This document shows positions 14,838 to 35,426 of a stretch of DNA of 64,000 nt, piece by piece. The first letter of the stretch is position 1; every line of letters starts with the position of its first letter. The notes under the pieces are model-generated. The model had not been told where the DNA came from. It did not search any database and saw nothing but the letters and a program-made list of their open reading frames with translations. This DNA comes from Bradyrhizobium japonicum USDA 6. GTDB taxonomy: Bacteria > Pseudomonadota > Alphaproteobacteria > Rhizobiales > Xanthobacteraceae. The position numbers were made by a program, and so were the translations under genes. The stretch lies in NCBI RefSeq assembly GCF_000284375.1, contig NC_017249.1, positions 8,549,001 to 8,613,000 of the forward strand, in the 5' to 3' direction.

Positions 14838-14964
14838 CTTGCGTCCCCCGGCGCGGTTGAAAAACCATTTCTAAAAATCTGACGATGTCGCTTGGCAATG
14901 GCCTATCATTTATGATTGAATGGCAAGATACAACTGAAAATTGTTGGCATATTTCGCCAACTCA
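14838..14964. promoter_or_regulatory. Divergent intergenic region between membrane pair and giant genes
   Basis: About 127 bp separating the minus-strand pair from the giant operon. It is AT-richer than its surroundings (around ATGGCCTATCATTTATGATT). It must hold promoters for both directions unless transcription reads through from elsewhere. I see no certain -35/-10 pair. Confidence 0.35.
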
Positions 14965-17900
14965 ATGCCGACACCGGGGGCGTGGATGGCGGCGAGCATA
15001 ATTTTTTTCTCCGGCGCAACGAATGCGCTGACCATCGCGGGCCTAACCCCGAACGATCCATTCAAGGTCGAGGAGATTCTCGTCACGACGCCGCAAGGCA
15101 GCGGAAGAATCAAAATCAATCCGTTTGTAATTCCGTCCCATGCATCCCAGACGCCCGGCCATCCACTAGAATCTATCCTGATCGAAGACGCGGATGTCGC
15201 GCTCGATCCGTGGAAGCTAAAGTCCTGGAGTCAGATCCAAAAGGACATCAAGTCCCTCAGAGACAGTGCGGCATTCGCGCTGGCCGCAGCCGCCGAAGCT
15301 GAACGGGACACGCTGCGGCAAGCGCTTCAAGGCGTATCGATAGACCTTGCGGCTGCAGGCTTTTTCGGCATCAGCGGGATACCGTTCGCAGCGGCCGGAG
15401 CTTTCGAGGCCCATCTCGGTATCGACATTGCGGCTTTTGATCCTGGCCAGGACGATACTCCACTGCTGACCGCGACGCTGACCGGAACTGGCCAGATATC
15501 GGTGCCGAACCAAATCACCCGCGCTGACGTCCGCTTTGAGGTCTCGCTGACCCGCAACGAAGTGGTCGATCTGCTGCCCTCGATATCGCTGCACCCGCTG
15601 CCCCAGTTTCCCGCGCTGCATCTGCGCTGGCCGAAGATCCCGTGGCCCCAACTAAGCTGGCCCGCGCTCGATTTGAGCGGTCTGATCAATCTGTTCAAGT
15701 TCGATCTACCGATTCCGAAACTCGATCTCGGCAAGTGGCCGATATCGATCCGATGGGCTACCGCGCCCAAGCCCACACTGGCGATCAACGCGCAGAAGCA
15801 GCTGGAGATCACCACCAGTCCGGCGCAGCGCGGCGATGGTACGCTGATCTACGAGAGCGCAGGCCACACTACCGATATCGCTGCGATCAACGGCTTCGGC
15901 ATCACGCTCGATGCCGCCGGCACATTGTCGCTTGCGGGGAAAGTCATCCCGACCGGCGTGCCCCCCATCGATCTGCCAGCGACCACCATCGAAAAGCCCG
16001 ACGCGCTGCCGTTCAAGATCGAACTGGCGGCCTCGGAGCTGAGCCTCGCTATGCCCCCGGTCGACCTCTCAAATCCGACGGCGGTGGGCGTCACCGCCAC
16101 GCTCAACATGCCGCGCATCCTGGTCCGCGCCAAGAACGATCCGGCACTGCTGATCGCCGTTCATGCCGCCTATTCACAGACGTTCGACACCCTTACCGGC
16201 AATTCGTCGGGCCAACTGACCGCGCTGGAAATTGTCGAACCCTATCCGGTCAAACTTGTCGCGCTGGCAGCGCAGGAAGCGGCCGATCTTGCCCAGGCGC
16301 TGGTCCGGTTCGTGTCGGCGCTCCACGTTCAGGGTCCGAACGTCCCCGATCTGTCAAATGTTCTCAAGGTGCTCGAACGTTTCGCGGACATGATGGCGGC
16401 GGCAGTGCGCTGGCTGGCGCAGCAGGCCGGCTCCGCCGCCAGTTCGCTGCTCGGCGTCGCCGAAGCGGTCGCCGAGGTCCTGGCGAAGCTGATGCGCATG
16501 CTGTGGGATGCAATCAAGGCCCTCGGGACGAGCGGCCCCGGCATCGCAATCGTCGTGGAGGTGCGGCTCGACGCGCGCAGCTATGCGCTGCGCCAAATCG
16601 TCATCACGCCGGCATGGGTCAATGCGCCGGGCGGGAATTTTTCAGGTCAGGAGCTCGGCCTCAGCATCGACATACCGCTGGACTGGCAACCGATGCTCCT
16701 CGTCGAGCTGGATGGCTCGCCGAGCGTCGCGCTGATGGCCGTACCGCCGGTAGGTTCACTCGCAACCTTGGGAACCGATCTCTGGCTGTCGCGCGACGCC
16801 GGCGTGGAAGCCGTGAGGGATACCGACCCGGACGGCAAACGGGCTGATAAGCGTCTGATCCAAGCCACCGCGAAATTCAATACTACGACGGCGATTGCGG
16901 TCATCCGCCTGAGTGGCGGCAAGGCCCAATTCATGCAGGCCTGCAAGGCGACAGTCCAGGCGACGCCGATCATGCCGCCGGCCGGGACCAGCCTGCCCGC
17001 GGGCTTGATGGTCGCGCGCATGACGGGCGCGATCACCTATTCGCCGCTCGATTGGGCGAGTGTCGATGTCAACATCGAGGCTCAGACCGACAGGCTGCTG
17101 CCGTTCCTTCAATCATCCAAACAGAGTACGCCGAAGTTTGTTGACGCGCTCGGCCAGTACATCCAGGTCACCGCGAAGAAATCTGCTGTTCCGGTCGGAA
17201 ACGGTGCCTTTGATCTGCCGATCAGCGTGACGCTGAAAATCAAGGACGCAAATGTCGATTTCGATCTCAACGTCCACATCGACCTCACGAATTTCAGCGT
17301 ACGATTGTCCGGCGGCGATAAGGTCCGCATCTTCGGCGAAGCCAGCAAATCGGATTTCAGTTTGCTTGGCCTGAACGGCAACATCGTCCTGAATGCGCCC
17401 AGAAGCGCCGATTGGCCTGCCGGCAAATTTCCGTTCTTCGGGCTGGATTTCTCGAGCGGCGACGTGCGCCTCTCACTGGCTCCTGAGGCGCGGCTCGACC
17501 TTGCCTACGGCCAGGTGGCCAGCGGCGGCCGCGGCATCGTGTTTCATGTCGATGAGCTCGGAATGTCGCGCAGCGGGCTCGACCTGGCGGCCAAGGTCGA
17601 CCGTGACACTCCGGTGCAACTCGCCGGCGTCGACATGCCGTTCCGCTTCGATGGCGGCGGGCTCTCGATCAAGAACAGCGAAATCCAGGCATTTTCGATC
17701 AAAGGCTCCGGGCAACTGCCTCCTGAACTGGTCGGCGAAGCCAACGCCACGATTTCCATCTCGATGGGAAGGGGAAGCGACGGCTCGCTGATTGTGCAGA
17801 GCGCCGAAGCCAAACTCGACAAGGCCAACGATCCGATCGTTTGCCACGCCACACGGTTCGTGCTGACTATCACCGCGCTTGGCCTCGAATTTCAGAACTT

Positions 17901-20900
17901 TACCGGCAATGGCGCCGGCTATCATTTCTACTTCACCCTGACTGGGACCGCGGTATTCCAGCCACGGGAGGGCGAATTCACCGACGGGCTGCTGAAATAC
18001 CTCGGTAGCATTACCATCACCCTGGACAAGGCGCCGCTCGCTCGGGATTCGTCGATGCTGCTGCGCGCGATTAAGTTCCAGGTCGCCGTGGTTCCGGCCA
18101 AGCGATTCAACTTCTTCAATCTATTCAACTTCGAGCTGCGCGGCATCGGATTCCATCCGGCTTCGCCGGCGTTCGGCGGCAAGCCGGCATTGTCGATTTC
18201 CGGACAGGTCAATTTCGTCGAAGCCGGCGATATCGTCAGCCCGAGAATTGATTTTCACGAGCTATGGATCGCGCCGCCGAAGGCTGGCCAGTCACTCCCG
18301 CAGATCCGGTTCGACGGATTGACGCTCGGCATACGCTTCGGCGGTGCGGCATCGATCGAAGGCACGGCGATGACCGTGGACGATACCTTGCCGAGTCTTT
18401 ACTCGCCGGGCGCACTTCCAAAGGACGTCACCGTCCACGGCTTCCTTGCTTCCGGCAAGCTGACCATCAAGGGCTGGGGCGCTATGTCCGCCGCGATGGG
18501 CTTCCTCGAGCTTCGCAAACCGGGCGGCGATTTGCGCCAGGCGTTTTTCCTTTATGGCGAGGCCGACGACCTTTCGATCGAAATACCGACCCCGGTCGGT
18601 CCGATCTATCTTCGGGAGGTCGGCTTTGGCTTCGGCTACCGCTTTACGCTCGCCGCCTTCAACCGCGCCGATCAGGTGACCAACGTCAAGGACCTCATCA
18701 AAGTCCTGGACGACATATCCAAATACCAGGGCAACCTTGCCTCGGTAAAATCGTGGGAGCCGGAGGCGGAGGGCAATCGCGTCACGCTGGCGCTACGGGG
18801 CTTGATCACGATCGAGAGCGCCTCCGAGGAAACCGAATATAACGCCGACGGCGAAAAGGAGCTTCCTAACCCGATCCTATTCGACATCGTCGCAGCCCTG
18901 CGCAGCGACTTCACCTTCTTCTTGAACGCGCGGGTCTGGATCGCACGCAACTACGCTGACTGGCATGATTCCAGTGTCAATGATGGATGGCGCAACAACC
19001 CGACCCTGCGCGGTTATGTCTACCTTTCAGTCCCGCGCAAGGAGTTTCTCGGGCGCCTAATCGCCGATGGCACCGGCGACGTCGAGGGTACTCATCCAAA
19101 ACTGCCGGCGCCGCTCGTCAAGGCCATGAAGAACATTCGGTGGTCGGCGACGACATACATCCGTCCCGGGCTGTTCCACCAGGAATTCGGCTGGCCTTAC
19201 GAACTCGGTTTCACGTTCGAGGAGAGGCAGAGCGGCGGCAGCTTCCAGATCGTCTGCGAGGGCGGGCTGATCAACCGCATCGAGGACGGCTCGATGCTGT
19301 ATGGCATCGCCTTCCGCGCCCGAGGTTACGCCCAATTTGGCGGCCAGGTCGGCGGCCGCTCGTTCGGCGCTTCTGTGGCGGCGCGCGCGGACTTCGCCAT
19401 CGATGCAAAATTCATTGCGTACATCTCGGTCAAGCGCTTCAGCGAAACACTGTTCTACGGCTCGATCGCTTTCGACATCTCGCTTTCGCTGCAGGTTCGC
19501 GTATGGCTCGAGTTCAGTGTCGGTTTCACCGACATCCATCTGGAAGTCGGTTTTTCGATTTCGCTGACGATCTCGATCGCACTTGAGGCCGCCGCCACGC
19601 CGAACAGCATCGCAGCGCGTGGTGCGGCATCGGTTGCCGTCGGGGCGTTTGGTCGTCACATCCGGCTGGGTATCGGGTTTGCGATCAATCCCGGACGCCT
19701 CGACGAGGCACGGGCGCGCGTCGAACGCTTCATGCAGCTTGGCCTTACGGTTGCGATGCCGGACGCTGAAAAGGGCATCGCGCCGCCGGCACCGGAGCTG
19801 CCGCGCGGACCTAGTGCAGCCGATGCCGACCAGGCTGCCAACGACGCGCTGGACAAGCACGACGCGGTGACCGCCCCCGCACCCGGCGCGGCCCCGACCG
19901 CGCAGGGGCGGCCGCTGCAGCCGACCGCGTATTGGGCGATGCTGTTTCCGGTCGCCGGCGACCAAGGCACCGGCGACGACGAGCGATTTGTGATGGTCTT
20001 CGTGCCCCGGGATCACACCGAAACCGGATTGGATACCAACAAACTCCCGACCAGCAGAGATGGCCAGTCCTTCAGCAGCTTCTACCCACCGCCGACGATT
20101 TTCGAGTCGGGCGGCGGTGTTTACCCGACGGCGCTGCGCATATCGACGCGAACGAAAGCAGACGGCACTCCTTTGATGACGCCCGTCGATCTGTTCCGAC
20201 TTGATGCCGAGTCAGGCAAGCAGCCTATCCAATTCGGAACCCCTCCGGCAACTCCCGTGCCGCTGACTTACAATCTGGACTGGAAGATCGCCGTGTCCGG
20301 CGGCGAAGCGCTCCCGATGGGCCGGTTCCTGTCGCAATGTTTCATTCGGCAGCCAAACGCGGCCGGCGCGGCGGATCTGAACGAGCCGTTGAATACGCAT
20401 ATCAAGGCTGACCGCGAGAGACTGCCGGATAACCGCGAGTCCGCCGCTCAAGTGCTCACCGAAGCGGGCCGAGATCAGATCAATCTCGGAATCGAATATC
20501 GCGCAGCCAACGATATCGAGGAACGACGCTCGGCCGCGATCGCCTCGTTGTGCGATTCCGCAGCCAGGCTTGCGGCCGGCGCCGATGCTTCCTGGCAGGC
20601 GGGCGCGGCTGAGGTCGGGCTGGACATCCGGACCATGGGAATTGCCTTTGTCGTGAAACGAGGCGACATCGACAAGCTGTTCGAACGGGCTTCAGCCGAC
20701 GATCTTCCGCGTGTCGCAAATTTCAACGTGGATTCCGCAGTCAGCTCGATCGTTCCGCTCGATGGCAACGTCCATCTCTTCAATCCGCCGGAACGGATGT
20801 TCAGGGAGCGCGCGCCGAGGCTGGCCGATCCGGTCATCGAAGCGACCGCGAGCGGCATCCGGCTCGACTGGGACCTCGAGCCCGCATTCGGCGCATCGAC

Positions 20901-23900
20901 CGGTGTGTGGAACGACCCTGAATTCAACCTGAAGCACTACCGGATCGAGCGCGTCGTAACGACGCCGGATAGCGTCGACAGCCAGTACAAGCCGATGCGC
21001 ATCACGACCAAGGCGGCCGGTCCCATGCGTCTGGTGCGCGACCCGGTCACCGCCAATTTCGTTTGGCGTTTCGTGCGACCCAACGCGCAATTCGTCGACG
21101 ATCTGTCTGACCTTCCCGATGAGCTGCGCCGCTTGCTGCTGCCGCCGTCGAACATACCCGCGAGCAAGCCGGGCGGACCACCGGCGAACATTCCGAACCC
21201 GCCACCCAATGTGCTGCGCTACGTCGTTGTGCCGGTCGACACGGCCGGCACAGATGGACCGCCGACGCCGCTGGTGTTGCAAACCGAAGCGGTCAAGCCG
21301 GCGCGCAAAAGTGTCAGCCGTGCGGTGCTGCATTTCGAATATCGCGGCAGCAAAGACCAGGTAATCGCCGACGTTACCTCGACGGCCTCCTTCATACCGA
21401 CCTTTACGCTCGGTATCGACGACGCTGCCGACCACCCGGCCGCCGACCCGAAGAAGCGCAATGACCTGAAGTCGCCGCGCTCCTACGTCGTGCGGGTCCG
21501 GAATGAACTTGCGGTTCCGATCGGGCTCTATGGTTCGGATGCGGTGAGCGACGCCCGTGCACGGCCGTCCGCGGCCGACTTCGCGATCAAGCGCCCGACA
21601 GACCGGGATTTCGTCATCACCTTGACCGATGGAGTGCTGCCCGGACCCGACGCAGGCAAGGTAAAGGAGCCGAGCTTCGACGACCCGACCGGGGTCGTGG
21701 CCGCGGCATTGCCGCCGAAGCCGGGGTACATGATTGATAACCTGGATGGCTTCAGGGAGGCCATCGGAGCAAAACGGACAGCGCGGAATCGGCTCGACAG
21801 CGGACCGATCGGCGTTCGCTTCGCGATCCAGCCCAAGCTTGACCTCGGCCTTAAAGGCGTTGAGCCGCCGTGGTGCCCGATGGACGCAACGATCCTGATT
21901 GATCTGACCGGCGTCGCTACCAAGGACAATTTACCGGCGGTCGCCGCGCCGGTCGAAGTATTCGAACACCCGGTCAAAATCGAGTCGGCGCCGTTGCTGT
22001 CGGAAGATCTCGATGGGGACGCCGGCCGGGTCACCATCCTGCACCCCGACAAGGATGCCACCCTTGCCCAATTGCTCGGCTGGAACGACGGCTCAACAGG
22101 TACGCCGCCGGTTCGGCGCATGCGCGATGCTGCGCGCCGCGTCGCTACGAAGGTTCGATGGAACGCCCGGCCCGCCGCATCAGACACGCTGGCCGCGGAC
22201 CATAGTGCCAAGCGGTCTGCGTTGTACTTCGGTGGATACGACATTTTCGAGCTCGATGTCGCCGGCGAAGCCGAAGGCGCCACCAGTGCCCCGGCGGCGC
22301 TGAGCCTGCGTTACCCATTCAGTAATTCCACCGTGGATGCCAATCCTGGCACCGCACTGCGCATCCACACCGTAGATGGCACGATGGATGCGATCTACGT
22401 CGGCGGCGATTTGGCGGCGCTGGACCGGCTTGACGATTCCGGCGACGCTGCCAAAGGCCAGATCCGCCTAGTCCAGATCGACAATCTGGCGAACGCCCTG
22501 ACCTTCGATCTCAAATTATGCGTGCGCGCGCGCGGCTATCGCAAACTCATCGTCGAGCCCGTACGCGGCAAGCCTCCCTTCGCCAATGGCAAAATTCTGG
22601 CACTGATTTTCACACGTGATCCTCCCGCAGGCCACCTGGCGCGCGTTCAAGCCTTACCGCCGTCGCTGGCGCGGCTCGATCCAGCCGAAATCATTGATTT
22701 CGCCAAGCTCGAGGCGCACTATCCAAGTGAAACCAGCCGGCTGTTGGCGTCGAGCTCCATAAGGCAGGGCGCGTGGTATTCACCTGCGGAATCCTTCCTT
22801 GTCTGGCCGGAGCGGATCTTGCGCCGCTCGCTGGCGATCAATGTTGACGAGCCGCTGTTGACCGAACTGCTCTCCAACGGTCGGCCTGAACGCATTGCCG
22901 TTGCACTCAAGATTAGCGATCAACTCAGCGGCGAGGTGCGGCGGCTTCTGGCCGACGGAGCCGAAGAAATCCTGCATCCGGAAGGACTGAAGGCACAATG
23001 GACCGCCGCGGTCTTGCGCGAACTCTTTCAAAACCTGGTCTGGAATGCGAACGCTCCGGATATTCGCGCGGCATTTGAAGCGAACCCCGCACCGTTCCGC
23101 AACGCGCGCATCACCGTCCGGGCCCTCAAACCCGGCGCGACCGGCGCGCCGGACATCGTGCTTGGTAGCACCGACTGGCAGATCGATCTCGACCCGCCCG
23201 TGCATCCCGTGCTCGCCGACGTCATCGACTGGGCGCGATATCAGACCGCGCCGCGCCTCAGGCTGCGATACCCTCAGTTGGATCTGGCCAAGCCGGCTAT
23301 AGAGGCGATCGAGACGTGGCTATCCGACCCGGCAACCAACATCGGACCCTCGGTCCAATTCTCCATCGCAGACTGGAGCGGCCTGGTGCCGGCGCTCGGC
23401 TTCCAACTCGGCCAGGACTTCCAGTTCCCGCCGGCGGGTCAAATCACCGAATTACGGCTCGAAGTTCCGAAAGGGAAAACGGCAGCCAGTCGGACCGACA
23501 TCGTCAACCAGATCATGACCGCGATCAGTCGGCTGGCCCTGCGACTCGACGGCGTACAAGTCGCAGCACTTGGCGCGCAGCAGGCGGCGGCGAAACTCGT
23601 CATCAATCTCGGCGCAACACCAGGTACGCCCGGTCCAGGTCCACAGCCGTTCAAGATCGCGGCGCAGACCAGGCCGGGACCGCGGTATCGCCGTTACGAA
23701 CCGGTTCTGGAGCAATCGCCCAAGATCGGCGCAAAGGAGGTCGCAGGCTGGTTCGATGAAACGCCGGTGCAGCGCGATCCCTACGGCTGGAGTATCATGC
23801 GCAGCCTCGGGCTCGCCGCGGGCCTCAAGCTCTACGACACCGAGGCCCGTGACTATGTCCCTCCCGCCGATGCGCTGGAGATCCTGCGGACCGCCTTTGA

Positions 23901-26900: not shown

Positions 26901-27291
26901 AGCCAGGGATTTCACGGCAACCGCCATTCTCGATCTCGGCGCCTTTGAGGACGGGGTTGCCGCCGTGCTGGAGATGCATCTGCCCTGTCAAGCACTGTCC
27001 GACCCGAGCATTGTCGCAGCACTGGGGGATCTCGATGGCAACGCCATGGCAAGGCTCCGCGTCTGCTCGCTATTGCTGCGGCAGCCACCTGACGACGGAG
27101 AGCGCAAGTCGATCATGGATGCGATCAATCAACTCGCGTCTGATCCGCAAGAGGACAAGGCCGGCCTAGTGAAATTTGTGGACCGCTGCCTTGCCGACCA
27201 GATTTTCGGCAGTGGGCGATCGCCGCGCGTGAAAGTCTACCGCGGCACAGCCGTACCGTTGTTTGATCCAATCGCAAGAGCAGGGACGTAG
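14965..27291 (+). CDS. Giant protein of about 4,100 residues, beta-strand-rich; family unknown (possibly DUF6603-like)
   Basis: One uninterrupted frame of 12.3 kb. ATG 14965 is used; TTG 14941 and ATG 14986 are alternatives, none with a strong ribosome site. No clear signal peptide is seen. Residues about 218-271 are unusually Trp/Pro/Leu-rich (WPKIPWPQLSWPALDLSGLI). Up to about residue 1600 the sequence is a long run of amphipathic beta strands (VDFDLNVHIDLTNFSVRLSG, VRVWLEFSVGFTDIHLEVGF). A block near 1180-1230 (FYLYGEAD-type, then VGFGFGYRFTLAAFN) recalls large DUF6603 proteins; this is unverified memory. An acidic Ala/Pro linker lies near 1620-1670. A fibronectin-III-like module is near 1960-2010 (SGIRLDWD, LKHYRIERV). 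The C-terminal 2,000 residues appear to be several further beta domains. Stop is 2 bp before the next giant gene. Extracellular, periplasmic or scaffold roles are all possible. Confidence 0.85.
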   Translation: MPTPGAWMAASIIFFSGATNALTIAGLTPNDPFKVEEILVTTPQGSGRIKINPFVIPSHASQTPGHPLESILIEDADVALDPWKLKSWSQIQKDIKSLRDSAAFALAAAAEAERDTLRQALQGVSIDLAAAGFFGISGIPFAAAGAFEAHLGIDIAAFDPGQDDTPLLTATLTGTGQISVPNQITRADVRFEVSLTRNEVVDLLPSISLHPLPQFPALHLRWPKIPWPQLSWPALDLSGLINLFKFDLPIPKLDLGKWPISIRWATAPKPTLAINAQKQLEITTSPAQRGDGTLIYESAGHTTDIAAINGFGITLDAAGTLSLAGKVIPTGVPPIDLPATTIEKPDALPFKIELAASELSLAMPPVDLSNPTAVGVTATLNMPRILVRAKNDPALLIAVHAAYSQTFDTLTGNSSGQLTALEIVEPYPVKLVALAAQEAADLAQALVRFVSALHVQGPNVPDLSNVLKVLERFADMMAAAVRWLAQQAGSAASSLLGVAEAVAEVLAKLMRMLWDAIKALGTSGPGIAIVVEVRLDARSYALRQIVITPAWVNAPGGNFSGQELGLSIDIPLDWQPMLLVELDGSPSVALMAVPPVGSLATLGTDLWLSRDAGVEAVRDTDPDGKRADKRLIQATAKFNTTTAIAVIRLSGGKAQFMQACKATVQATPIMPPAGTSLPAGLMVARMTGAITYSPLDWASVDVNIEAQTDRLLPFLQSSKQSTPKFVDALGQYIQVTAKKSAVPVGNGAFDLPISVTLKIKDANVDFDLNVHIDLTNFSVRLSGGDKVRIFGEASKSDFSLLGLNGNIVLNAPRSADWPAGKFPFFGLDFSSGDVRLSLAPEARLDLAYGQVASGGRGIVFHVDELGMSRSGLDLAAKVDRDTPVQLAGVDMPFRFDGGGLSIKNSEIQAFSIKGSGQLPPELVGEANATISISMGRGSDGSLIVQSAEAKLDKANDPIVCHATRFVLTITALGLEFQNFTGNGAGYHFYFTLTGTAVFQPREGEFTDGLLKYLGSITITLDKAPLARDSSMLLRAIKFQVAVVPAKRFNFFNLFNFELRGIGFHPASPAFGGKPALSISGQVNFVEAGDIVSPRIDFHELWIAPPKAGQSLPQIRFDGLTLGIRFGGAASIEGTAMTVDDTLPSLYSPGALPKDVTVHGFLASGKLTIKGWGAMSAAMGFLELRKPGGDLRQAFFLYGEADDLSIEIPTPVGPIYLREVGFGFGYRFTLAAFNRADQVTNVKDLIKVLDDISKYQGNLASVKSWEPEAEGNRVTLALRGLITIESASEETEYNADGEKELPNPILFDIVAALRSDFTFFLNARVWIARNYADWHDSSVNDGWRNNPTLRGYVYLSVPRKEFLGRLIADGTGDVEGTHPKLPAPLVKAMKNIRWSATTYIRPGLFHQEFGWPYELGFTFEERQSGGSFQIVCEGGLINRIEDGSMLYGIAFRARGYAQFGGQVGGRSFGASVAARADFAIDAKFIAYISVKRFSETLFYGSIAFDISLSLQVRVWLEFSVGFTDIHLEVGFSISLTISIALEAAATPNSIAARGAASVAVGAFGRHIRLGIGFAINPGRLDEARARVERFMQLGLTVAMPDAEKGIAPPAPELPRGPSAADADQAANDALDKHDAVTAPAPGAAPTAQGRPLQPTAYWAMLFPVAGDQGTGDDERFVMVFVPRDHTETGLDTNKLPTSRDGQSFSSFYPPPTIFESGGGVYPTALRISTRTKADGTPLMTPVDLFRLDAESGKQPIQFGTPPATPVPLTYNLDWKIAVSGGEALPMGRFLSQCFIRQPNAAGAADLNEPLNTHIKADRERLPDNRESAAQVLTEAGRDQINLGIEYRAANDIEERRSAAIASLCDSAARLAAGADASWQAGAAEVGLDIRTMGIAFVVKRGDIDKLFERASADDLPRVANFNVDSAVSSIVPLDGNVHLFNPPERMFRERAPRLADPVIEATASGIRLDWDLEPAFGASTGVWNDPEFNLKHYRIERVVTTPDSVDSQYKPMRITTKAAGPMRLVRDPVTANFVWRFVRPNAQFVDDLSDLPDELRRLLLPPSNIPASKPGGPPANIPNPPPNVLRYVVVPVDTAGTDGPPTPLVLQTEAVKPARKSVSRAVLHFEYRGSKDQVIADVTSTASFIPTFTLGIDDAADHPAADPKKRNDLKSPRSYVVRVRNELAVPIGLYGSDAVSDARARPSAADFAIKRPTDRDFVITLTDGVLPGPDAGKVKEPSFDDPTGVVAAALPPKPGYMIDNLDGFREAIGAKRTARNRLDSGPIGVRFAIQPKLDLGLKGVEPPWCPMDATILIDLTGVATKDNLPAVAAPVEVFEHPVKIESAPLLSEDLDGDAGRVTILHPDKDATLAQLLGWNDGSTGTPPVRRMRDAARRVATKVRWNARPAASDTLAADHSAKRSALYFGGYDIFELDVAGEAEGATSAPAALSLRYPFSNSTVDANPGTALRIHTVDGTMDAIYVGGDLAALDRLDDSGDAAKGQIRLVQIDNLANALTFDLKLCVRARGYRKLIVEPVRGKPPFANGKILALIFTRDPPAGHLARVQALPPSLARLDPAEIIDFAKLEAHYPSETSRLLASSSIRQGAWYSPAESFLVWPERILRRSLAINVDEPLLTELLSNGRPERIAVALKISDQLSGEVRRLLADGAEEILHPEGLKAQWTAAVLRELFQNLVWNANAPDIRAAFEANPAPFRNARITVRALKPGATGAPDIVLGSTDWQIDLDPPVHPVLADVIDWARYQTAPRLRLRYPQLDLAKPAIEAIETWLSDPATNIGPSVQFSIADWSGLVPALGFQLGQDFQFPPAGQITELRLEVPKGKTAASRTDIVNQIMTAISRLALRLDGVQVAALGAQQAAAKLVINLGATPGTPGPGPQPFKIAAQTRPGPRYRRYEPVLEQSPKIGAKEVAGWFDETPVQRDPYGWSIMRSLGLAAGLKLYDTEARDYVPPADALEILRTAFDEILRRYPLTDFGSPFVDIVTHAGGTMSLASFDGGMSGVAANEVAALLDDKALSLVQISLRPTVDRFAGAWVDSGDERGGSRQPIDKVVAYFAIKSAFPDRTDKAKIQIDLNGLNPAQGLVAIAEVIDLSSGLAKPPIVTLIAKADTGDAVKTLREAMLDGAGEQQTLEIDASKLKKGDIAALARVTVNLADAAAVFGQPTGAAWVTGADIEQVASPDDCKVQPFGRFPEMTARRYSALAGPGGHKSLLDAIKRFRSYALRRLPDGWPNATDEPTVVARIPEWTRRFIEHGPASRPERTKMPLFAIAEVSRPDPWRVGVAGDGTMEVLFTHDDRKRRLKRYAVRPYGRYEAFTDALTHATDPDVPPKPPRLGGAWVDVLADSTDAQQKFENNWSQRFFDVVIPRSEPLAPPVLVDARRIEILPPTAATDPAPRKVLEFLYSRHPEEVLSEANVTVEGALSFETVSFGFWREFPMQSWANDLQANIDTTEAFGGWDHRPAPFKLIDSSDEFGGLAQLPPPQGKTDFVPGRYTDGWRGALALRTEALPFFFRTHVAAFASAGVVVSEPVVATIEEGHYELALPWRPSVPPKPGDINAPTPPPDWCVKRLNNPDRVWVTFRLPLARLFDSMPQDSRKVWLQANNIPDVFMLPDPVARYEIGVVATDDAGLSAASAELDIIGQQRPVIPVPGQPAAASGYRMNLVGPLFDPSSPTSPPVEPPAVNGICWKLYPSVLVKGDATLPSEKFAPSIATTDPTSGGGDPLRKFVLAPEDFGAAGIWPVVAPTTTLTFEVHVPAVNTGWPAFTAAVAAWRDVYQDYRAIVGAKDIWEFLDLWARTNWPPPADQPRQFTTAAFAAGLPWPSTLPADVSTTQTGGWTWPTLASSAGGITQRQSVRALIPRTGYNAADFKTMISGPICAEMRRVVAARKEAKSRFANYSPLNTVLPADPAVLPASGSIAKAAYRLATTKTLPSSVDVIVAIPITVDTRAAGTYAKINALILAVEARDFTATAILDLGAFEDGVAAVLEMHLPCQALSDPSIVAALGDLDGNAMARLRVCSLLLRQPPDDGERKSIMDAINQLASDPQEDKAGLVKFVDRCLADQIFGSGRSPRVKVYRGTAVPLFDPIARAGT

Positions 27292-27293
27292 CG

Positions 27294-30200
27294 ATGGCTG
27301 GTCGCATGACCGCATTTCGCCGGGTAGGCATCGACGGGCCTGACTATGGCAGCAACGGAGCGCTGTGGCAGGCCTGGCTCGATCTCGGCTCGCAACCCAA
27401 AGCGGCCGACCAACCGCCGCGAAATAGTTCGATCCGAGTGATCTTGCAGGCCGCGCGCGCCGATCAGGTACCCATCCAGGATCAGGCCGACGTCCTGTTC
27501 CAGGAACCGATGTTGCTGGCGATGGCGGCAACAACCGTCGACTTCCGCAACGACCCTGGCTCGGCGCCTTCTATCACGATCGGAAGAGCGCAATTCACGC
27601 CGCTCGCCCTCGCCGATTTGTCGCCGTTGCCGGCGGCGGCCGGCGTGGCTGGACCGCCGCCCCGCCCTTCCCGCTATTCGGATTTGAGGGTGGCGCCGAA
27701 AACCGCATGGCCGCCGCGGCCGGACGGATTCGTCAAGATCGACAACGTATTCGAACTTGCCGCGCCTCAGCTTCGCGCTACACGCGGCCGGATTCCCGTC
27801 GCCTGCGCGCTGGATGCCGAACCGAAACCTAGCGTCGGCTACGCGCTGACCAAACAGCTGTCAATCGAATGGGCGACGCCTGGCGACTACATTCGAATCT
27901 TCGGCGGGCTGTTCATCCGGCGGCGGAAAACCGCAAAGCCCATCCCCGGCCATACCAAGGTCTCGGATGCCATCACCTTCGATCTTACGCCAGACGGAGT
28001 CGAATTCGACGTCCTCGCCCCCAATCCGTTCGGAACCAGCAATGGTGACCGATTGCCGTTGCGCCTTCGTCTGGTTCCGGTGGAAATCGGCAACGGACTG
28101 ACCGGCCTGCAACTGGACCTGATCGATCCAGTTTCGGATTCGGCATCGTTGATCAAATTGAAAGCCGGCCTGAACTGGATGTCGCGCGACCTCACCGATC
28201 GAGGCGGCTGCATCTCGCTGCAGGTCGATACTTCCGCCCTTCCACCGCTGGCCTGGCCGCTTCAGGTCAAAGGTGAACCGGCTGCGCCGGTCTGGGTGTG
28301 CGACAATCCGGCTGCTGTGCCCGGCGCGGATCTGATTCCGTCAATCCGCATGCTTGAAGACGCGGTGGCCGCTCGGCTGCTGACGCGCGAGGACTATGGC
28401 GGCGGCGAACCCGGCGTCGCCGAGCTTACCGGTCACAGGGCCACCCTATCCGCACGCAGGGGGACCGATCCTGTTGTCCTGACCATCACATCGCAAGCCG
28501 AACGTCCGGCCGCGCTGGAAGAAGCTGCCACGGCATCGCCCACTATCCTGCTGACATGGAGCGAGGCCGCCAAGCCGCCGTTCAATCCGGACAAGATAGA
28601 GGTCAAGCCGTTTTCGGGAATTGTCGACGCCTCTCCGCTCGCGGCGCGTCTCGGCGAGGTCTGGGCGGTATCCGGCGCCATCGCCAGCGGGACGCGGCCG
28701 CCCTATGCTTTCATTGCGCTCGAACGCGGCTGGGTTCAGATGCCGCTTCCCCCCGCGCCGAAGCCCGATGATCCACCGCCGGTCAAGCTGCTCGCCGCAG
28801 GCTCAGCGTTCCGCGGCTTCCTTCGGGTTGCGGTCGATGCCGGCGGCTCCACCGCACGTGCCGACGATCCGACGCTGCCGGGTCTGGAAATCGTCGGCGC
28901 GCAAAGCGTCAACGCCACCGTGATCTGGAAGAAGCCGCTCGACACCGCTCTGCCGCGCAGCATCGCCGTTGCGGTAAATGCTGCGGCCGGAACGCTTGAA
29001 GGCGTATTGTGGGCGGGCGAGGCCAGTCCTTCGCCGACCGAAATCTTGCCGCCGCTGGACGCCGGTCCGGCTTCCCTGACCAGCGCTCCAATTGCATTCG
29101 GTGTCAGCGGTCCGACAAACTGGCAAGTCCAGGTGGCCGGCTTCCGTGAAAAAGGCGTTGGGTCGATCAGCTTTAGGCTGCCGCTGTTCCCGTCTGCTGT
29201 GGATCCCCTGCTGGTCTGGCAGCCGCATCAGACCCTTGCGCTGGTCTCATCGGTATCGATGACCAGAACTGCCGAAAGCGCCAAGCGGCCCTCGGCAACA
29301 CGCGAGCTGGTCCCTGCCGAAGTGATCGGCAGCCCGACCACACCGTTGACATTGACTTTCGCCACCGACACCGACGGCAACGCGCTACGGCTGCCGTACA
29401 TCGATACACTGCCGTTGAATACGACGGCCTATGGCGACGGCCGCTGGCGCTGGCCTTGGCCACCGCAGCGGGCCGTGGCGCCCGGGCCGTATCCGTCATC
29501 TCCCGAAGAAAGCGCGGGCGTGGCGCTGGCTTCGCTGACATTGCCGGGCATCGAGTTCACGCCTTCGGCGGATGCAGCCACGCCTGTGTCGAGCAGCCAG
29601 ATGCGGGTGTCACTCCGCTACGACTTGCCGGTGCTCGACGAGCTGTTCGCAGATTCCAAGGCGCCGGAGCCGAAGGTGCCGATTTCCGGTGACGCGAAAT
29701 CGCAAGCCGGATCGTCCGATGCGGCGCCCGAGAGCCCGAAAAGGATCGACACACCGCCAACGGCACTCGATCTGGCGCGGCTATCCGGCGTGTGGTTCGA
29801 AAACGCACGACGATTGGCGCGCGCACGGACCGAAGGCGATCGCGTCGTGCTTCGTGAATTGCAAGATCAAGACCACAAGCCCGTTGTTGAACTTTGGCAT
29901 CGGTTAAGCGGCGTAACCGATGGCATCGTTCGCGGTATCGCAGAGCCGTATGTCTGGAAGCCGCCGACATTCGGTTTCAGTGCTCTGCCTCCGGCACCAA
30001 ACGTTGACGTCCATCTCGGCGCTTATATCCTTGGTAACACTTGGCAGTATGGACCCGCGGCGCTGGCTGGCCTGCCCGACACTAACTTCACAATTCCCAC
30101 GACCGGCAATGAACTGAAGCCCTCGACGGCGCCCGGTCCCGGCCAGATCGAGGTGAAGGGCTTCGCAGCATCTTCTTTCCCCGTCGCCTTCACGTCACCC

Positions 30201-33200
30201 GGTTCAGCGACGCCCGTGACCCAGCCCAACCATCTGCAAGACGCGCGTGGCTTGTCGCTCGCGTTGGTTCCGGATCTGACTTCGCCTCTTCAAACTAGCC
30301 GGACCGCGGCGCTGCGTGCGGCGCCCGACGACCTGGCCCTGGTGCTGGCAACGTTGCGCAAGCCGGTCAAAGTCATGGTCGGTGACGTCGGTTGCAGTTT
30401 CTGGTTCCGTGACCTGCCGCTCAAGACGGACGCCGGCCAGCTGACCTTCGATACCTCCGGTGGTCTTGAAACCGGACTCGGGCCCGATCCCGCCGCCATC
30501 AATCGCAACCGGGTCACACGCACGGTGTACGAATGGGGTTTCTTCGGTCCGCAAGAAGAGAGACCGCCGGGGGGGAAATCGTGGAACCAGAAAAAACCAA
30601 AGCGCGGTCGGTTTGAGTTCGACTTGGCTGGTCCTTTGTCCGCCCGACCGTTACGTCTGCTCAGTGTTGACATCGCTTCCGCTGGCGGTGTGCTGCAGTT
30701 CGAATTGCTGGCTTCCGTGCAATACAAGTCGCCTCCTTCCGACGACAATGACACCGCGCCGTTCGCCGCCGAAGCGATCTATGCGACCGGCAATCTTGTG
30801 CGGCTGACGTTTGGGCCCGGATCGATGCCGGACGGTAGTCTCGCCCTGACCAAGATGATTCGGATCGAAATCAAGGATCCTTCGGATCCGACCATGGTCT
30901 CCGACCCGTTCGTTCCGCCGTCCAAGGTTGATCCAAAACCCGGCGACAAACCGAAGTCGGTTTCTCTGGTGTCGGATGTTGAGGTACATCACGGGCCCAA
31001 TCAGGCTGCCTCGAAGACCTCGAAAACACGCTTGAGCCTCGATTTCCATTTCACCCGGGACGTCCAGAACAGTAAACCCGACATCGCGTCCGCCAACCTT
31101 CGTGTGCGTCTGTTCGGACAGGACTGCAATCTCGACACCACTGATGCGGGCTTCAATCCGCCCGGATTGACCGCGTCATTCAGCGCTTCGCCGGTAGAAG
31201 GCATCCTGAACCTCAAGAAGATGGAACTGATCTGGCCGGAGCGCGGCGGTCCGATGCTTTATCTCGCCGACGGCGACCTCACCGTTCCGCTACGCAACGC
31301 GAATAGCCCGCCAGTTTTCAAGCGCAACTTTACCAACGGTACGCTGCAATGGCTTGGCCTCGGATCTCGCCCCGCCGATGGGGCGGAATCGATCGATCAC
31401 GAAACCGGGGTGGTCACGATCGAAGTCAAGGACAAGATCGCCGGCCCGGTCGACGGGCAGCAACCTCCGATGCTTTTCCGCGGCTTCCATCTGCCGGCCG
31501 GGACGTTGCAGGGGGTGGTGGCCGTCGTATTCCCGAAAGGACATGCCGTCGAAGGCCAGAAATGGCCGACATGGCCAACCCCTGCGCTCGGCTCGGCCTT
31601 GGTCGAATTCGCGTTTGACGCCGATACGTCGACATCGCCGCAACGGATCACCGCCATCCGGCATCGTCACAGCGGCGCCGCGGCAGTTGACGGCAACCCG
31701 GTGCGCTGGACCTCGCGGTTGTTGTTCGACGCCGCATTTGCGGCGCCGGGCCTCGACATCAGTTCGGTTTCGTGGCCCGTCGGCTACGCGACGCCGAGCC
31801 GCGTCACGTTCGATCCCGATTCCTCCGTGCCGGGGGACTGGCCGGCAACGCTGACCATGCGTGGCAGCGGCGACCCGCTTGCAAAGCTGATGCTCGCGCA
31901 CAAGGTACAACCGCGGCTTTGCGCACATGAATTGCCGACGGACATCCTTGTTGCCAACGGGAACGCCGTGCTCCTTGGCAGGTCGTGGTCGTTCCGAGCT
32001 GTCGTCGATCACACATTGACACCCGTGAAGGGAGCGTGGCCGGGTGCGCCAGCCACGCTGGCGAACACTCCGCTGATATGGACGTCAATCGATGAAGTCA
32101 TTATGTTCGACATGCACGGGCTCATTGCGGCGGCAAATCTGCAGCCGGATCCGGCGCGAGATCGATACGCATTCCTCGCGCGCTACAAGGACTCCGCGCT
32201 GGACGCCGATGTCCGCATAGCCGGCGTGGTTCGCCGCGCGCTTGCTGATGCAGGCTTCCCCGTTGAATATGTCATGCAGGCGCTGAAAGGGACCGTCGCA
32301 CCGGACTCGCTCGTTCTCACCGGCGCTGCACTGACCGAAGTCGTGACGTCGCTGGAAACGCCGAACCGAGGCGTCGTGCTTGTCCCCCAATGGATCCTGC
32401 CATGGTCGCCCCTGTCCAGTTCTCCGGGGGGAGACGCGAACGGCGAGGCCGCCCTTGGTGCGCTGAAAGCCTGTCCGCAAACCCACACCGACAACGGCGA
32501 TCGCGTTTACAATATTGCTCTGTATGACGCGACAGCCGGCACGCCACGGTCGCTGGAGGGACCGCCGCCCAGTTCGTGTGCGGTTCAGGACGGAACGCAA
32601 AGTCTGCTTGAAACACTGATGTCTTCCATCGTGGGCGGCGGCAAGGCCCGCGCGATGGTCGCCGTCGATCAGGCCATGCTAGTGCCAAAGACCGCGGCCG
32701 TTCCCCCGCTGTCCCGGCCGCTTTTCCCGCGCACGCTGCTGGCGTTGAGTGCGGTGGCGGAAGCCTACGGCAAGGCGCTGAGCAGCAATCCCGTGCCACC
32801 ATTTGTCCGGCGGATCAGTTGCTTGACGGCACGGGAGGTACCCCTTGACGGTGTCCGTGCTTCTGGCGAGGTCAGGTTTACGGTGACGGCATGGCCCCCG
32901 AATTCGCCGCCCCTCGATCCTGCCGCGCCGGCGGTGACACTTATCGTGACCGACGCAGCATCGGTGCAAAATGACTTTCTTCCCGCCGCGCTTGCCGCCA
33001 CGCTGGTCGATTCCGCCAGCAACCAGGTGGTCCTTGACGGCAAGCAACGCGCCGATGCGTCGATGCGCGCATTCGGGTTGAGCGCGAATCCGCGGGTTCT
33101 GATACTCGCCAGCGTCGACAGCAGCTACTTGACGATTCACGATCCTAAATCGTCTCGCGATCCGGATTCGCCGTCGCGGATTCCGCCACCGCACGTTTCG

Positions 33201-35426
33201 TGGCTGGTTACGCAGCCCGCGATGCCGCTCATGAAGGAGCAGCGGCCGCACGTTTTGCGAAGACTGTCCGATACGATCTATGCCTCGCCGGCACTGGGTT
33301 GGCCGCTGGTTACCCGTGCCGATGACACCGCGAAAGCGCAGGTCAGTCTTGGCGAGGAAGAAGTTCGCCGCAACGAGCAGCACGCCTGGGCGGGGCGCGT
33401 GCGGGGCTTGGCATGGCCAGCAATCGCATGGAACCGCAGCGCGATTGCGGATGACGAGATCCAGCACGACCCGACCGGCGCTCCTGACCAGACTGTTGAA
33501 GGCGGCTATCTCCCGGCCGATGCCGCAGAAATGCGCGAGAGCGCCTTCATCACGGCCGGACAACGGGTTGCATTCCGTCGCCGTGCCGCAAAGAGTCTGC
33601 GCGCCCCACCCGACCGGCATTCCGTGCTGGCTCCTCCGCGAGCCCGCGCGCCGACCATTGACGCGATCGCCGCGGCGTTCGGTCAGGCTCGAAATCCGCT
33701 GCCTGAAGCCGCCAAATCGGCGGACCGTGCCGGTCTCGCGCCGATGCTTCCGGGCGCGATCGAAGCCACTGTCACCGGACAACGGCCTGGTGTCATGCTC
33801 TCGCAGTTTGAGGGCGTACTGCTGACATCGTTCATGGTGCCGTTCGACAAGGATTTCAGCCGGTTCGGTCGCCCGGCCTGGCGTGGACCCCTAACCCTAC
33901 GCCAGGTTCGAGCCCCGCGATCATCGGCGCTCCCCGAAATCTCCGACCTGGCGATCCGGCGCAAGACTTACCTCTCGATGGACGAGATCGATGGCGCGAA
34001 GAATCTGAAAGCCTTCAAGGTTGTCGCGGGGCCGGCGCAAGTCGTACGCTTCGATCGCCACCTGACAGGCGATACGCGGAGCCCACATGCCGTGACGATC
34101 CGCGTGGAGAATCCAGATCACGGGCGTCTTTCGGCCGATTGGGACGGAAGACTCCGCCTGATCGCAACCGTGCCAACTGATCTGACCGGGCCCGATCCCG
34201 CCGCTCACGTCGCACTGGCACGGATCGGCCTCCTGCCTTCACAGACCGAGAAGCGGCGTCCACGGGTTGAGCTCAGGGTTGGGGACATCATTGTCGTATT
34301 CACCCAAATGATTTGGGCACCGCTTCCTTCAAGCGGACCCAGACCAACACGCTTGATGATCGATTTCATCGTCGAGGGACCGGCGCGTGACGCGGCGCAG
34401 GCAGCCGTCGCGCAGGCGCTTCGCGATTCCTCGGCAGACACACCGGTACGGATAACGATCCGCGGCACGCGGCCCAATCAGGCGAATGAAGGCGATCCGT
34501 CGATAAATGGATCCGGCTCTGCACAGCTTGAAACCGGAACCGTCAATCAGCTTCTGCCCGGTCCGCCGCATGTTCTGGTTTTCGACCTGCCGCACATCCC
34601 GAGCCGGCAGCGATGGCTGCCAGTCAAGACGTTCACGCTGGCGTTCGGCGATCCGGCCTATGATCGCGAACTCGGCGGCCCAACGTCCAGCAATCAGGTC
34701 GGTATCGGAGACGTACCGCACGTCCTTGCGGTCGATCGGGCCGAATATGATCCTGCCGCGACGATCCATTTGGCGTTCTGGAAGCGGCAAAAAGGCCTCA
34801 ACACGAAGGTCGAAAAGCCTGCGGGCTCCTGGGCGTTGATCGTTCAGGTCGTGCCGGGCGACGGCGGACCGTCGCGATCACTGCAAATCGCGGCGACCGA
34901 GGCCAAACCCTCGAACCCCAAATTCCCTGGTTCGCGTTATGTCGTGGAAGGTTGCGAAATCTATGCGATTCCGCTCTCCGCGCTGCGAGAGCCCGTTGAT
35001 CCGAAAAGCCCGTCGGCCGACGTGCCCGCAAAATTGAAGGCGGGTGACCGGTTGCAGGTCACGGTGAACAACGAAGCAGCCGACAAAGAACAACTGACAC
35101 TTAATGTCGGCGTCATTGCCCAACCGGTGCTACCACCGCCGGCCGCCACGTATGGGCTCGCAACCCTGCAACGTGTGGACGCTGCCGTCGGCACAACGCT
35201 GTTTGCGACGGCGCCACTGCCCCAAGCGATCGAGTATCCCGATCTGCTCAGCGACTTGGTCGCAGGTCACGTTCGCCGGCGCGGAATGTTTCTCTGGCCG
35301 TTTGCCGGCAACGGACCGGCAGGAGCGGATTCGGGTCACGCGTTCGGATTTCTCGTCAAGGTGGATCGAACAGGCGGCGGCCAGCTGCCTTCGGCCAAGG
35401 CTGACTTCGAGAAATCCGAGAGCTGA
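27294..35426 (+). CDS. Second giant protein, 2,710 residues, unknown family
   Basis: Starts at ATG 27294, 2 bp after the stop of the first giant gene and behind AGGGACG, so translation is probably coupled. It begins MAGRMTAFRRVGIDGPDYGS with no signal peptide or transmembrane helix. The composition resembles the C-terminal half of the first giant: Pro/Asp/Ala-rich beta-type sequence with few cysteines (FIALERGWVQMPLPPAPKPD, SFRLPLFPSAVDPLLVWQPH). Charged linkers are present, for example near 790-820 (SKAPEPKVPISGDAKSQAGS). The C-terminus is compact (LVAGHVRRRGMFLWPFAGNG, HAFGFLVKVDRTGGG). I see no catalytic motif. The uninterrupted 8.1 kb frame shows strong selection, in contrast with the broken genes elsewhere. 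It likely acts with the first giant as a complex. Confidence 0.85.
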   Translation: MAGRMTAFRRVGIDGPDYGSNGALWQAWLDLGSQPKAADQPPRNSSIRVILQAARADQVPIQDQADVLFQEPMLLAMAATTVDFRNDPGSAPSITIGRAQFTPLALADLSPLPAAAGVAGPPPRPSRYSDLRVAPKTAWPPRPDGFVKIDNVFELAAPQLRATRGRIPVACALDAEPKPSVGYALTKQLSIEWATPGDYIRIFGGLFIRRRKTAKPIPGHTKVSDAITFDLTPDGVEFDVLAPNPFGTSNGDRLPLRLRLVPVEIGNGLTGLQLDLIDPVSDSASLIKLKAGLNWMSRDLTDRGGCISLQVDTSALPPLAWPLQVKGEPAAPVWVCDNPAAVPGADLIPSIRMLEDAVAARLLTREDYGGGEPGVAELTGHRATLSARRGTDPVVLTITSQAERPAALEEAATASPTILLTWSEAAKPPFNPDKIEVKPFSGIVDASPLAARLGEVWAVSGAIASGTRPPYAFIALERGWVQMPLPPAPKPDDPPPVKLLAAGSAFRGFLRVAVDAGGSTARADDPTLPGLEIVGAQSVNATVIWKKPLDTALPRSIAVAVNAAAGTLEGVLWAGEASPSPTEILPPLDAGPASLTSAPIAFGVSGPTNWQVQVAGFREKGVGSISFRLPLFPSAVDPLLVWQPHQTLALVSSVSMTRTAESAKRPSATRELVPAEVIGSPTTPLTLTFATDTDGNALRLPYIDTLPLNTTAYGDGRWRWPWPPQRAVAPGPYPSSPEESAGVALASLTLPGIEFTPSADAATPVSSSQMRVSLRYDLPVLDELFADSKAPEPKVPISGDAKSQAGSSDAAPESPKRIDTPPTALDLARLSGVWFENARRLARARTEGDRVVLRELQDQDHKPVVELWHRLSGVTDGIVRGIAEPYVWKPPTFGFSALPPAPNVDVHLGAYILGNTWQYGPAALAGLPDTNFTIPTTGNELKPSTAPGPGQIEVKGFAASSFPVAFTSPGSATPVTQPNHLQDARGLSLALVPDLTSPLQTSRTAALRAAPDDLALVLATLRKPVKVMVGDVGCSFWFRDLPLKTDAGQLTFDTSGGLETGLGPDPAAINRNRVTRTVYEWGFFGPQEERPPGGKSWNQKKPKRGRFEFDLAGPLSARPLRLLSVDIASAGGVLQFELLASVQYKSPPSDDNDTAPFAAEAIYATGNLVRLTFGPGSMPDGSLALTKMIRIEIKDPSDPTMVSDPFVPPSKVDPKPGDKPKSVSLVSDVEVHHGPNQAASKTSKTRLSLDFHFTRDVQNSKPDIASANLRVRLFGQDCNLDTTDAGFNPPGLTASFSASPVEGILNLKKMELIWPERGGPMLYLADGDLTVPLRNANSPPVFKRNFTNGTLQWLGLGSRPADGAESIDHETGVVTIEVKDKIAGPVDGQQPPMLFRGFHLPAGTLQGVVAVVFPKGHAVEGQKWPTWPTPALGSALVEFAFDADTSTSPQRITAIRHRHSGAAAVDGNPVRWTSRLLFDAAFAAPGLDISSVSWPVGYATPSRVTFDPDSSVPGDWPATLTMRGSGDPLAKLMLAHKVQPRLCAHELPTDILVANGNAVLLGRSWSFRAVVDHTLTPVKGAWPGAPATLANTPLIWTSIDEVIMFDMHGLIAAANLQPDPARDRYAFLARYKDSALDADVRIAGVVRRALADAGFPVEYVMQALKGTVAPDSLVLTGAALTEVVTSLETPNRGVVLVPQWILPWSPLSSSPGGDANGEAALGALKACPQTHTDNGDRVYNIALYDATAGTPRSLEGPPPSSCAVQDGTQSLLETLMSSIVGGGKARAMVAVDQAMLVPKTAAVPPLSRPLFPRTLLALSAVAEAYGKALSSNPVPPFVRRISCLTAREVPLDGVRASGEVRFTVTAWPPNSPPLDPAAPAVTLIVTDAASVQNDFLPAALAATLVDSASNQVVLDGKQRADASMRAFGLSANPRVLILASVDSSYLTIHDPKSSRDPDSPSRIPPPHVSWLVTQPAMPLMKEQRPHVLRRLSDTIYASPALGWPLVTRADDTAKAQVSLGEEEVRRNEQHAWAGRVRGLAWPAIAWNRSAIADDEIQHDPTGAPDQTVEGGYLPADAAEMRESAFITAGQRVAFRRRAAKSLRAPPDRHSVLAPPRARAPTIDAIAAAFGQARNPLPEAAKSADRAGLAPMLPGAIEATVTGQRPGVMLSQFEGVLLTSFMVPFDKDFSRFGRPAWRGPLTLRQVRAPRSSALPEISDLAIRRKTYLSMDEIDGAKNLKAFKVVAGPAQVVRFDRHLTGDTRSPHAVTIRVENPDHGRLSADWDGRLRLIATVPTDLTGPDPAAHVALARIGLLPSQTEKRRPRVELRVGDIIVVFTQMIWAPLPSSGPRPTRLMIDFIVEGPARDAAQAAVAQALRDSSADTPVRITIRGTRPNQANEGDPSINGSGSAQLETGTVNQLLPGPPHVLVFDLPHIPSRQRWLPVKTFTLAFGDPAYDRELGGPTSSNQVGIGDVPHVLAVDRAEYDPAATIHLAFWKRQKGLNTKVEKPAGSWALIVQVVPGDGGPSRSLQIAATEAKPSNPKFPGSRYVVEGCEIYAIPLSALREPVDPKSPSADVPAKLKAGDRLQVTVNNEAADKEQLTLNVGVIAQPVLPPPAATYGLATLQRVDAAVGTTLFATAPLPQAIEYPDLLSDLVAGHVRRRGMFLWPFAGNGPAGADSGHAFGFLVKVDRTGGGQLPSAKADFEKSES

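Follow-up and report, generated by a model that had tools for sequence, protein, structure and literature searches.

Two giant, always-linked genes in Bradyrhizobium japonicum USDA 6, with putative cell-wall enzymes of unrelated families beside them in a minority of loci

Here we describe a pair of giant genes, called A and B throughout, that lie head to tail in a stretch of 64,000 nucleotides (the window) of the Bradyrhizobium japonicum USDA 6 genome (contig NC_017249.1, positions 8,549,001 to 8,613,000), and we weigh what their products may do. From its ATG at 14965, gene A runs through 4,108 codons with no internal stop, and gene B follows with 2,710 codons; a description of the two as giant, intact head-to-tail reading frames 2 bp apart, given in an earlier note made from the letters alone, was borne out. 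The stop codon of A (TAG, 27289-27291) is separated by those 2 bp from the ATG of B at 27294 on the same strand, and the motif AGGGACG (27282..27288, plus strand), which lies immediately ahead of the stop codon, is a plausible ribosome-binding site for B, so that the translation of B is likely coupled to that of A. The true start of A is uncertain among a TTG at 14941 (giving an open reading frame (ORF) of 14941..27291 and 4,116 amino acids), the ATG at 14965 and an ATG at 14986; the database protein identical to the A product, P0003, has 4,101 amino acids. Both genes are richer in GC (62.7% in A, 63.5% in B) than the rest of the window (57.2%).

The two genes are found together in every readable locus. 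A locus scan with one genome per species yielded 29 loci, four of which (L030, L032, L033 and L034) are truncated or disrupted and thus uninformative on linkage; the other 25 (L006-L029 and L031), joined by six plasmid loci (L001-L005 and L104), form a readable set of 31, in which L103, the same record as L011, is counted once. B lies downstream of A on the same strand in 31 of 31, and no readable locus has the two unlinked, an arrangement that would have refuted the reading of the earlier note. The gap between them is -28 to +289 bp in 23 loci, and in six more there are overlaps of -124 to -349, where the ORF finder had picked an upstream alternative start; in Undibacterium (L005) and R. ruizarguesonis (L104), two consecutive genes take the place of B, which is thus split in two. 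The readable pairs span rhizobia, Pseudomonas, the myxobacterium Pyxidicoccus and one planctomycete, while the cut A loci derive from Desulfobulbaceae and Binatia assemblies.

Purifying selection acts on both genes. Between the window and a Tardiphaga pair (L007), amino-acid identity is 83% for A and 82% for B, and the ratio of nonsynonymous to synonymous change (dN/dS) is 0.167 over 4,094 codons of A and 0.186 over 2,708 codons of B, as had been expected of genes maintained by selection; in four further pairs of relatives the ratio is 0.08-0.22 for A and 0.18-0.30 for B. Along the genes, in blocks of 500 codons, the fraction of synonymous sites changed between the window and L007 is 0.35-0.47 in every block, and that of nonsynonymous sites lies between 0.036 (codons 1001-1500, the lowest) and 0.136 in A; in B it is 0.083-0.102. 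The most conserved part of A comprises residues about 850-1600. The identity matrices of A and B correlate with r = 0.97 (378 pairs, 28 loci), which common ancestry alone could produce; together with the constant adjacency, this correlated divergence is consistent, at the level of sequence, with the earlier suggestion that A and B act together.

The pair is a rare, horizontally transferred accessory trait of plasmids and islands. Of 296 genomes in the family to which the window belongs, just two hold the A core, one of them the window's own, and in a tree of 35 A cores, some long branches of which are uncertain, the Bradyrhizobium rows are split over four clades, one of them shared with Undibacterium. 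Five of the seven plasmid records that match B are typed as conjugative. One could suppose that the pair benefits nothing but the mobile element carrying it, for instance in plasmid competition or stability, and its location on plasmids and islands fits this; the window's copy, however, lies on a single 9.2 Mb contig, and the typed plasmids that carry the pair are of several different replicon types, so that we regard this explanation as very improbable. A protein search, drawn from the candidates sharing most words with the queries, yielded 57 proteins like A and 29 like B, those of the window itself among them. Their lengths are mostly close to the query, with a local coverage of A of 25-100%, and their names, where given, are 'hypothetical' or 'uncharacterized' protein, with the sole exception of a LysM name for P0009 of B. 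quebecense. One A relative, P0054 (EukProt g939.t1, 6,766 amino acids), continues by eye into a B-like part, a membrane segment and further parts. Over 181 amino acids its tail shares 40% identity with a metallopeptidase encoded close to the Sinorhizobium pair; P0054 is probably a bacterial contig (contamination) with merged genes. The broken locus L032 (Pseudomonas rubra contig 45) is a second copy of part of the A-B region, with an in-frame stop reported in a B-like piece; an intact pair (L025) is present in that genome too.

None of the four family libraries searched matches A or B above its cut-off: Pfam gave no match at an expectation value (E) of 1, PHROGs and PADLOC gave none at E 0.1, and NCBIfam gave nothing above cut-off for either protein and one chance-level match for A below it. 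The genes had earlier been noted as being of no identified family, and in these libraries there is indeed no full-length match to a characterised one. Profile searches of the PDB with 23 A and 22 B relatives returned nothing meaningful for either protein, and no paper recognisably about the two genes was found in the open-licence literature. The idea that B is a phage gene was rejected on zero matches in 50,697 phage records; one IMG/VR contig did match, equal in length and range to the Jannaschia contig (L024/L048) already found. The view that this is not an ordinary giant adhesin also held, as there is no adhesin, RTX or other Pfam domain in either protein, Tandem Repeats Finder (TRF) reported no tandem repeats in A or B, and none of the 10 A and 8 B proteins put through a crude hydropathy scan began with a signal-like segment or showed a consistent transmembrane one.

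A structure model of A residues 690-1640 shows a long beta-strand meander, with a mean predicted local distance difference test score (pLDDT) of 76.6 and a predicted template-modelling score (pTM) of 0.52; the models covered this part of A and, in B, the residues after 1510. This modelled meander is reminiscent of LptD, porins and ApoB-100, and one may ask whether A is a lipid-handling or envelope protein with B as its structural partner, the pair building an envelope or extracellular structure. There is, however, no sequence similarity to these proteins, and in Foldseek rows up to E 0.001 the TM-scores are 0.21 or lower, with root-mean-square deviations (rmsd) above 8 in most VIA rows, so that the likeness may be one of strand topology only and we do not claim membership. 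Moreover, with no recognisable signal peptide, A lacks the usual path to the outer membrane, and we think this explanation quite unlikely. The viral structure library gave two rows below E 0.001 for the A core, with TM-scores of just 0.07-0.12, and these were rejected. For B, Foldseek gave two rows below E 0.001 (a nuclear pore chain and visual arrestin), rejected with a TM-score to the query of 0.07; a beta-sandwich in the C-terminal half of B may be of the type found in Vps26 and arrestin or in alpha-2-macroglobulin and complement proteins.

A resemblance of A to DUF6603 had been raised in the earlier note. The Pfam model of this family (PF20248, cut-off 27 bits) has no match in A or B (P0001 and P0002) at E 1 and 0 matches in the window's genome, while the same search, run on another phylum, exceeded the cut-off in 10 of 146 genomes and is thus shown to work. 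When A residues 820-1620 were aligned by hhalign with a profile of 11 DUF6603 proteins, four reference rows gave E 0.0012, 0.0081, 0.012 and 0.012, at a probability of about 19% or less; the lowest E among 96 controls (24 per row: one reversed, 12 shuffled and 11 other A or B segments, four of these reversed) was 0.098. The best-matching stretches are roughly co-linear, and by BLAST one DUF6603 protein reached A residues 1132-1270 at E 0.007, near the site of the profile match. The resemblance thus survives as a remote profile similarity that beats all 96 controls, and not as a match to the Pfam model: from sequence comparison, the tie between the A core and DUF6603 looks like a very remote, sub-threshold one, a supported lead rather than membership. 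DUF6603 proteins are also large, and in myxobacteria other large genes flank theirs; an FnIII-like stretch of A (fibronectin type III) finds its best match in one such large gene, at E 0.0025 (reversed control 0.33; 32 comparisons). On the other hand, A exceeds in length the DUF6603 proteins that were retrieved, and it has B as a partner. B resembles neither DUF6603 nor any of four clusters of DUF6603-neighbour proteins compared with it; the large genes beside DUF6603 were accordingly dropped as candidate relatives of B. By BLAST, two DUF6603-neighbour proteins hit A relatives at E 0.010, a signal too faint for use. In the myxobacterial-phylum loci L094-L102, DUF6603 genes adjoin large genes of about 650-1,830 amino acids, and the seven of these that were scanned have no Pfam family, which makes them another uncharacterised multi-gene system; no paper naming DUF6603 was found in the literature searched.

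Table 1. Features of the A-B locus (positions in the window)
Feature	Position	Strand	Description
Gene A	14965..27291	+	4,108 aa; no known family; ORF scan and family searches
Gene A, residues 690-1640	17032..19884	+	Holds the most conserved part and the remotely DUF6603-like region
Gene A, residues about 1608-1655	19786..19929	+	Less conserved Ala/Pro-rich linker after the core; low pLDDT at model end
Gene A, residues about 1965-2060	20857..21144	+	FnIII-like; fold named by eye
Gene B	27294..35426	+	2,710 aa; no known family; ORF scan and family searches
Gene B, residues 2461-2614	34674..35135	+	Beta-sandwich, perhaps of Vps26/arrestin or complement/alpha-2-macroglobulin type
Gene B, residues 2658-2700	35265..35393	+	Conserved C-terminal motif GHVRRR...KxDRTGGGQLP
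Putative Amidase_6 enzyme	35545..36156	+	203 aa; Pfam E 6.6e-7, 30 bits (cut-off 23.2)
Divergent upstream gene	13000..14837	-	N-terminal (V)WGET(S) domain and membrane segments

The region after B varies between loci. In 5 of the 31 readable loci, the first or second same-strand gene after B encodes a putative cell-wall enzyme, and four unrelated families are involved: Amidase_6 in L006 and L007, YkuD in L004, a Tlde1-like protein just below cut-off in L012, and M23 in L011, where the gene is so annotated and matches lysostaphin at E 7e-7. No obvious signal peptide was seen on these enzymes. In the window the putative Amidase_6 gene, also present in L006 and L007, starts 118 bp after B and has a dN/dS of 0.086; by hydropathy its product has no obvious signal peptide or transmembrane segment, and it has no PDB relative better than E 0.11. 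The window's genome holds 20 YkuD, 5 M23 and 2 Tlde1 matches, from which the chance of meeting YkuD, M23 and Tlde1 in 3 of 31 loci, at one or two genes per locus and an assumed 7,000-9,000 genes, comes to P of about 0.0001-0.002, a rough guide since the families were picked post hoc. In the sister loci L013/L041, L103 and L104, a membrane protein (52-95% identical between them) stands directly after B and is followed by a different gene in each: a free GETS-type protein (L013/L041), the M23 enzyme (L103) and a protein that looked by eye like an L,D-transpeptidase (L104), a reading for which a PDB search yielded nothing relevant. A lysozyme-like reading of the gene downstream of B in L024 was likewise by eye only and was rejected, as Pfam and the PDB returned nothing for it. 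DUF3238 follows B in L026.

In some relatives B itself is extended, and the extra segments start beyond the conserved C-terminal motif. Such extensions occur in five loci (L011, L013, L104, L025 and L004), and most B proteins have none. A GETS-type domain ends B in the first three of these, an unrelated segment of about 215 amino acids does so in L025, and in L004 there is a 128-residue tail that the 79%-identical B of L002 lacks. The L025 segment was thought lysozyme-like by eye, a reading abandoned after Pfam and the PDB gave nothing; a protein search with it found one relative, of an unnamed domain.

On the other side of A, a divergent gene encodes a (V)WGET domain and membrane segments. 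Here it consists of two overlapping ORFs on the minus strand (13000-14307 and 14268-14837), whereas a 99.96% identical stretch of another genome (L006) has a single ORF of 612 amino acids in its place; the split may be a sequencing error, phase variation or fresh decay. Of the earlier impression that small genes of the window are decaying, followed up for this gene next to A, the split ORFs stand, with fresh decay as one of three possible causes. Relatives of the gene lie beside 8 of 33 sequences compared, with the window and near-identical L006 counted apart; the one in L016 is on the strand of A and lacks the WGET letters. Its domain had looked by eye like a SleB/Hydrolase_2 cell-wall hydrolase, an assignment dropped after profile comparison: three GETS-type sequences reached 20 Hydrolase_2 rows at E 0.06, against E values down to 0.013 among 20 shuffled controls. 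A PDB profile search with the (V)WGET domain gave nothing, and a relationship between the GETS-type proteins and this domain is at most tentative (E 0.016, 19% identity).

Scans of the flanks covered 169 of 218 ORFs (78 downstream and 91 upstream, some of them probably not genes), and what follows refers to the top 25 families of each list. These families include transposases, integrases, AAA/OLD, AbiE, restriction-modification and TIR proteins, and one may imagine A and B as an intracellular anti-phage or conflict system of defence islands, with the enzymes as lysis effectors of abortive infection. AbiE, restriction-modification and TIR proteins, a Gabija-like ATPase and Avs1c as neighbours would suit such a role, as would the mobile, sporadic distribution; however, A and B lack both a PADLOC match at E 0.1 and any Pfam domain, mobile islands commonly hold defence genes, and the neighbourhoods were counted without controls. 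We judge a defence role quite improbable.

The explanation that we favour, tentatively and at less than an even chance, is that A and B form a giant complex that is made in the cytoplasm and is active outside the cell that makes it, with an exchangeable module for breaching the cell wall. What the analysis shows is two intact, selected and constantly linked genes with correlated divergence and horizontal spread, a beta-rich model of the A core, and, in a minority of loci, putative wall enzymes after B or a lengthened B; the physical complex, its action outside the cell and the part played by the enzymes are inferred. A and B would be translationally coupled subunits of one largely beta-structured complex, which would be synthesised in the cytoplasm, as no export signal is recognisable, and would then act outside the producer, most likely in contact with the envelopes of other cells. 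In some lineages the variable module would supply a cell-wall-type enzyme and a membrane protein, and these might open either the wall of the producer, for a release akin to the lysis-type 'type 10' release of Tc toxins, or the wall of the target. That a large protein machine crosses cell walls is hinted at because a small enzyme of a cell-wall-cutting type sometimes adjoins the pair. That some B proteins carry extra segments speaks for functions that remain attached to the complex, whereas a membrane protein kept in common beside varying enzymes speaks for an export module.

Tc toxins offer a parallel in logic. YenTc, as reported in PMC10847048, is a giant complex that folds in the cytoplasm and is released by holin/endolysin/spanin lysis, and the same source places holin/endolysin/spanin cassettes in some Tc operons. 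What A and B would have in common with the type 10 system described there is giant proteins with no obvious export signal and putative cell-wall enzymes nearby in some loci. In contrast to Tc toxins, A and B have no TcA, TcB, TcC or Rhs family (Pfam, E 1), nor is any among the flank families listed, and no holin or spanin was recognised among the families listed for the A-B loci, so that the resemblance is one of logic only.

The variable end could also be read as a toxin. In this alternative the cell-wall-type enzymes are the payload and A and B the delivery body for interbacterial killing, as in polymorphic toxin or type VI secretion system (T6SS) effector systems. PMC9638812 and PMC9927483 describe T6SS cell-wall effectors that include Tlde1 and enzymes of the L,D-transpeptidase fold, and similar classes (Tlde1, L,D-transpeptidase and M23-type), with no obvious signal peptide, would here stand at the variable end of the cluster; the variable segments come directly after the conserved motif of B, and the enzyme differs among sister loci. 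No T6SS component, however, is found in A or B or among the flank families listed. One membrane protein accompanies different enzymes in three sister loci, which a specific immunity protein would not be expected to do; nothing was recognised as an immunity gene, although no search was aimed at one; and an extended B is the exception. A payload seems to us unlikely on balance.

Several observations weigh against the complex with a wall-breaching module that we prefer. In the other 26 of 31 loci, none of the four enzyme families was recognised over or near cut-off after B, although not every downstream gene was scanned, and what stands there is diverse: an insertion sequence (L009), SLOG-like genes by eye (L014, L015 and L027), a gene of 1,385 amino acids (L022), a C70 papain as second ORF (L005), a trypsin with a signal-like start (L020), an M10/M12 peptidase at 2 kb (L001), a weak NlpC/Amidase_6-like gene below cut-off at E 0.03 (L010), the gene that by eye is L,D-transpeptidase-like (L104), unknown proteins (L016, L018 and L019), and nothing in line in further loci. 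Action of the window's Amidase_6 on peptidoglycan is assumed. The L025 tail belongs to no known family, and the upstream (V)WGET domains, at E 0.8 against Hydrolase_2, have no profile link to cell-wall hydrolases. Holins and spanins are absent among the families listed in the flank scans, with no search aimed at spanins; membrane proteins do occur in several loci, and none matched a holin family among those listed, while the search for the membrane protein seen in the rhizobial sister loci did not extend to all other pairs. Finally, defence-type genes occur in several neighbourhoods, for which no control neighbourhoods were scanned.

A bolder form of the proposal, which we hold to be doubtful, is that A and B constitute a giant particle of two proteins that belongs to a class of its own, with no kinship to phage tails or Tc toxins, spread among distant bacteria by mobile elements and equipped with an exchangeable 3' module for breaching cell walls, present as a separate gene or as a fusion to B. 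If true, the particle would add to the large protein machines of bacteria a new kind, one with cell-wall passage built in, and DUF6603 might become tied to a testable function. Whatever the pair does, its nearly 7,000 residues, always linked, kept by purifying selection and passed between distant bacteria, imply a substantial benefit.

Some further observations concern the surroundings. About 2.9 kb after B of L015, L105 encodes a membrane protein of 313 amino acids that resembles by eye the segment following B in P0054, and is possibly another export or lysis component. Within the window, a tyrosine-recombinase-like ORF (2319-3374, plus strand, near the left end) and transposase-like ORFs (54386-55159 and 60311-60763) were noted by eye, and given these the pair may lie on an island. 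Upstream of it, 3867-5618 (plus strand) encodes a trypsin-like protein with ankyrin repeats according to Pfam, and CHAT, caspase or trypsin-type proteins also occur near other pairs (L001, L002, L028/L052 and L104). Downstream, 37051-38391 and 38602-41430 encode alpha/beta-hydrolase-like proteins, the first weak in Pfam and the second recognised by eye. In Jannaschia (L024/L048), on the contig that is listed in IMG/VR, the genes downstream of the pair and on the opposite strand resemble those of gene transfer agents (GTA) and phage tails (GTA_TIM and Phage-tail_3), and the pair there adjoins a prophage or gene-transfer-agent-like cluster.
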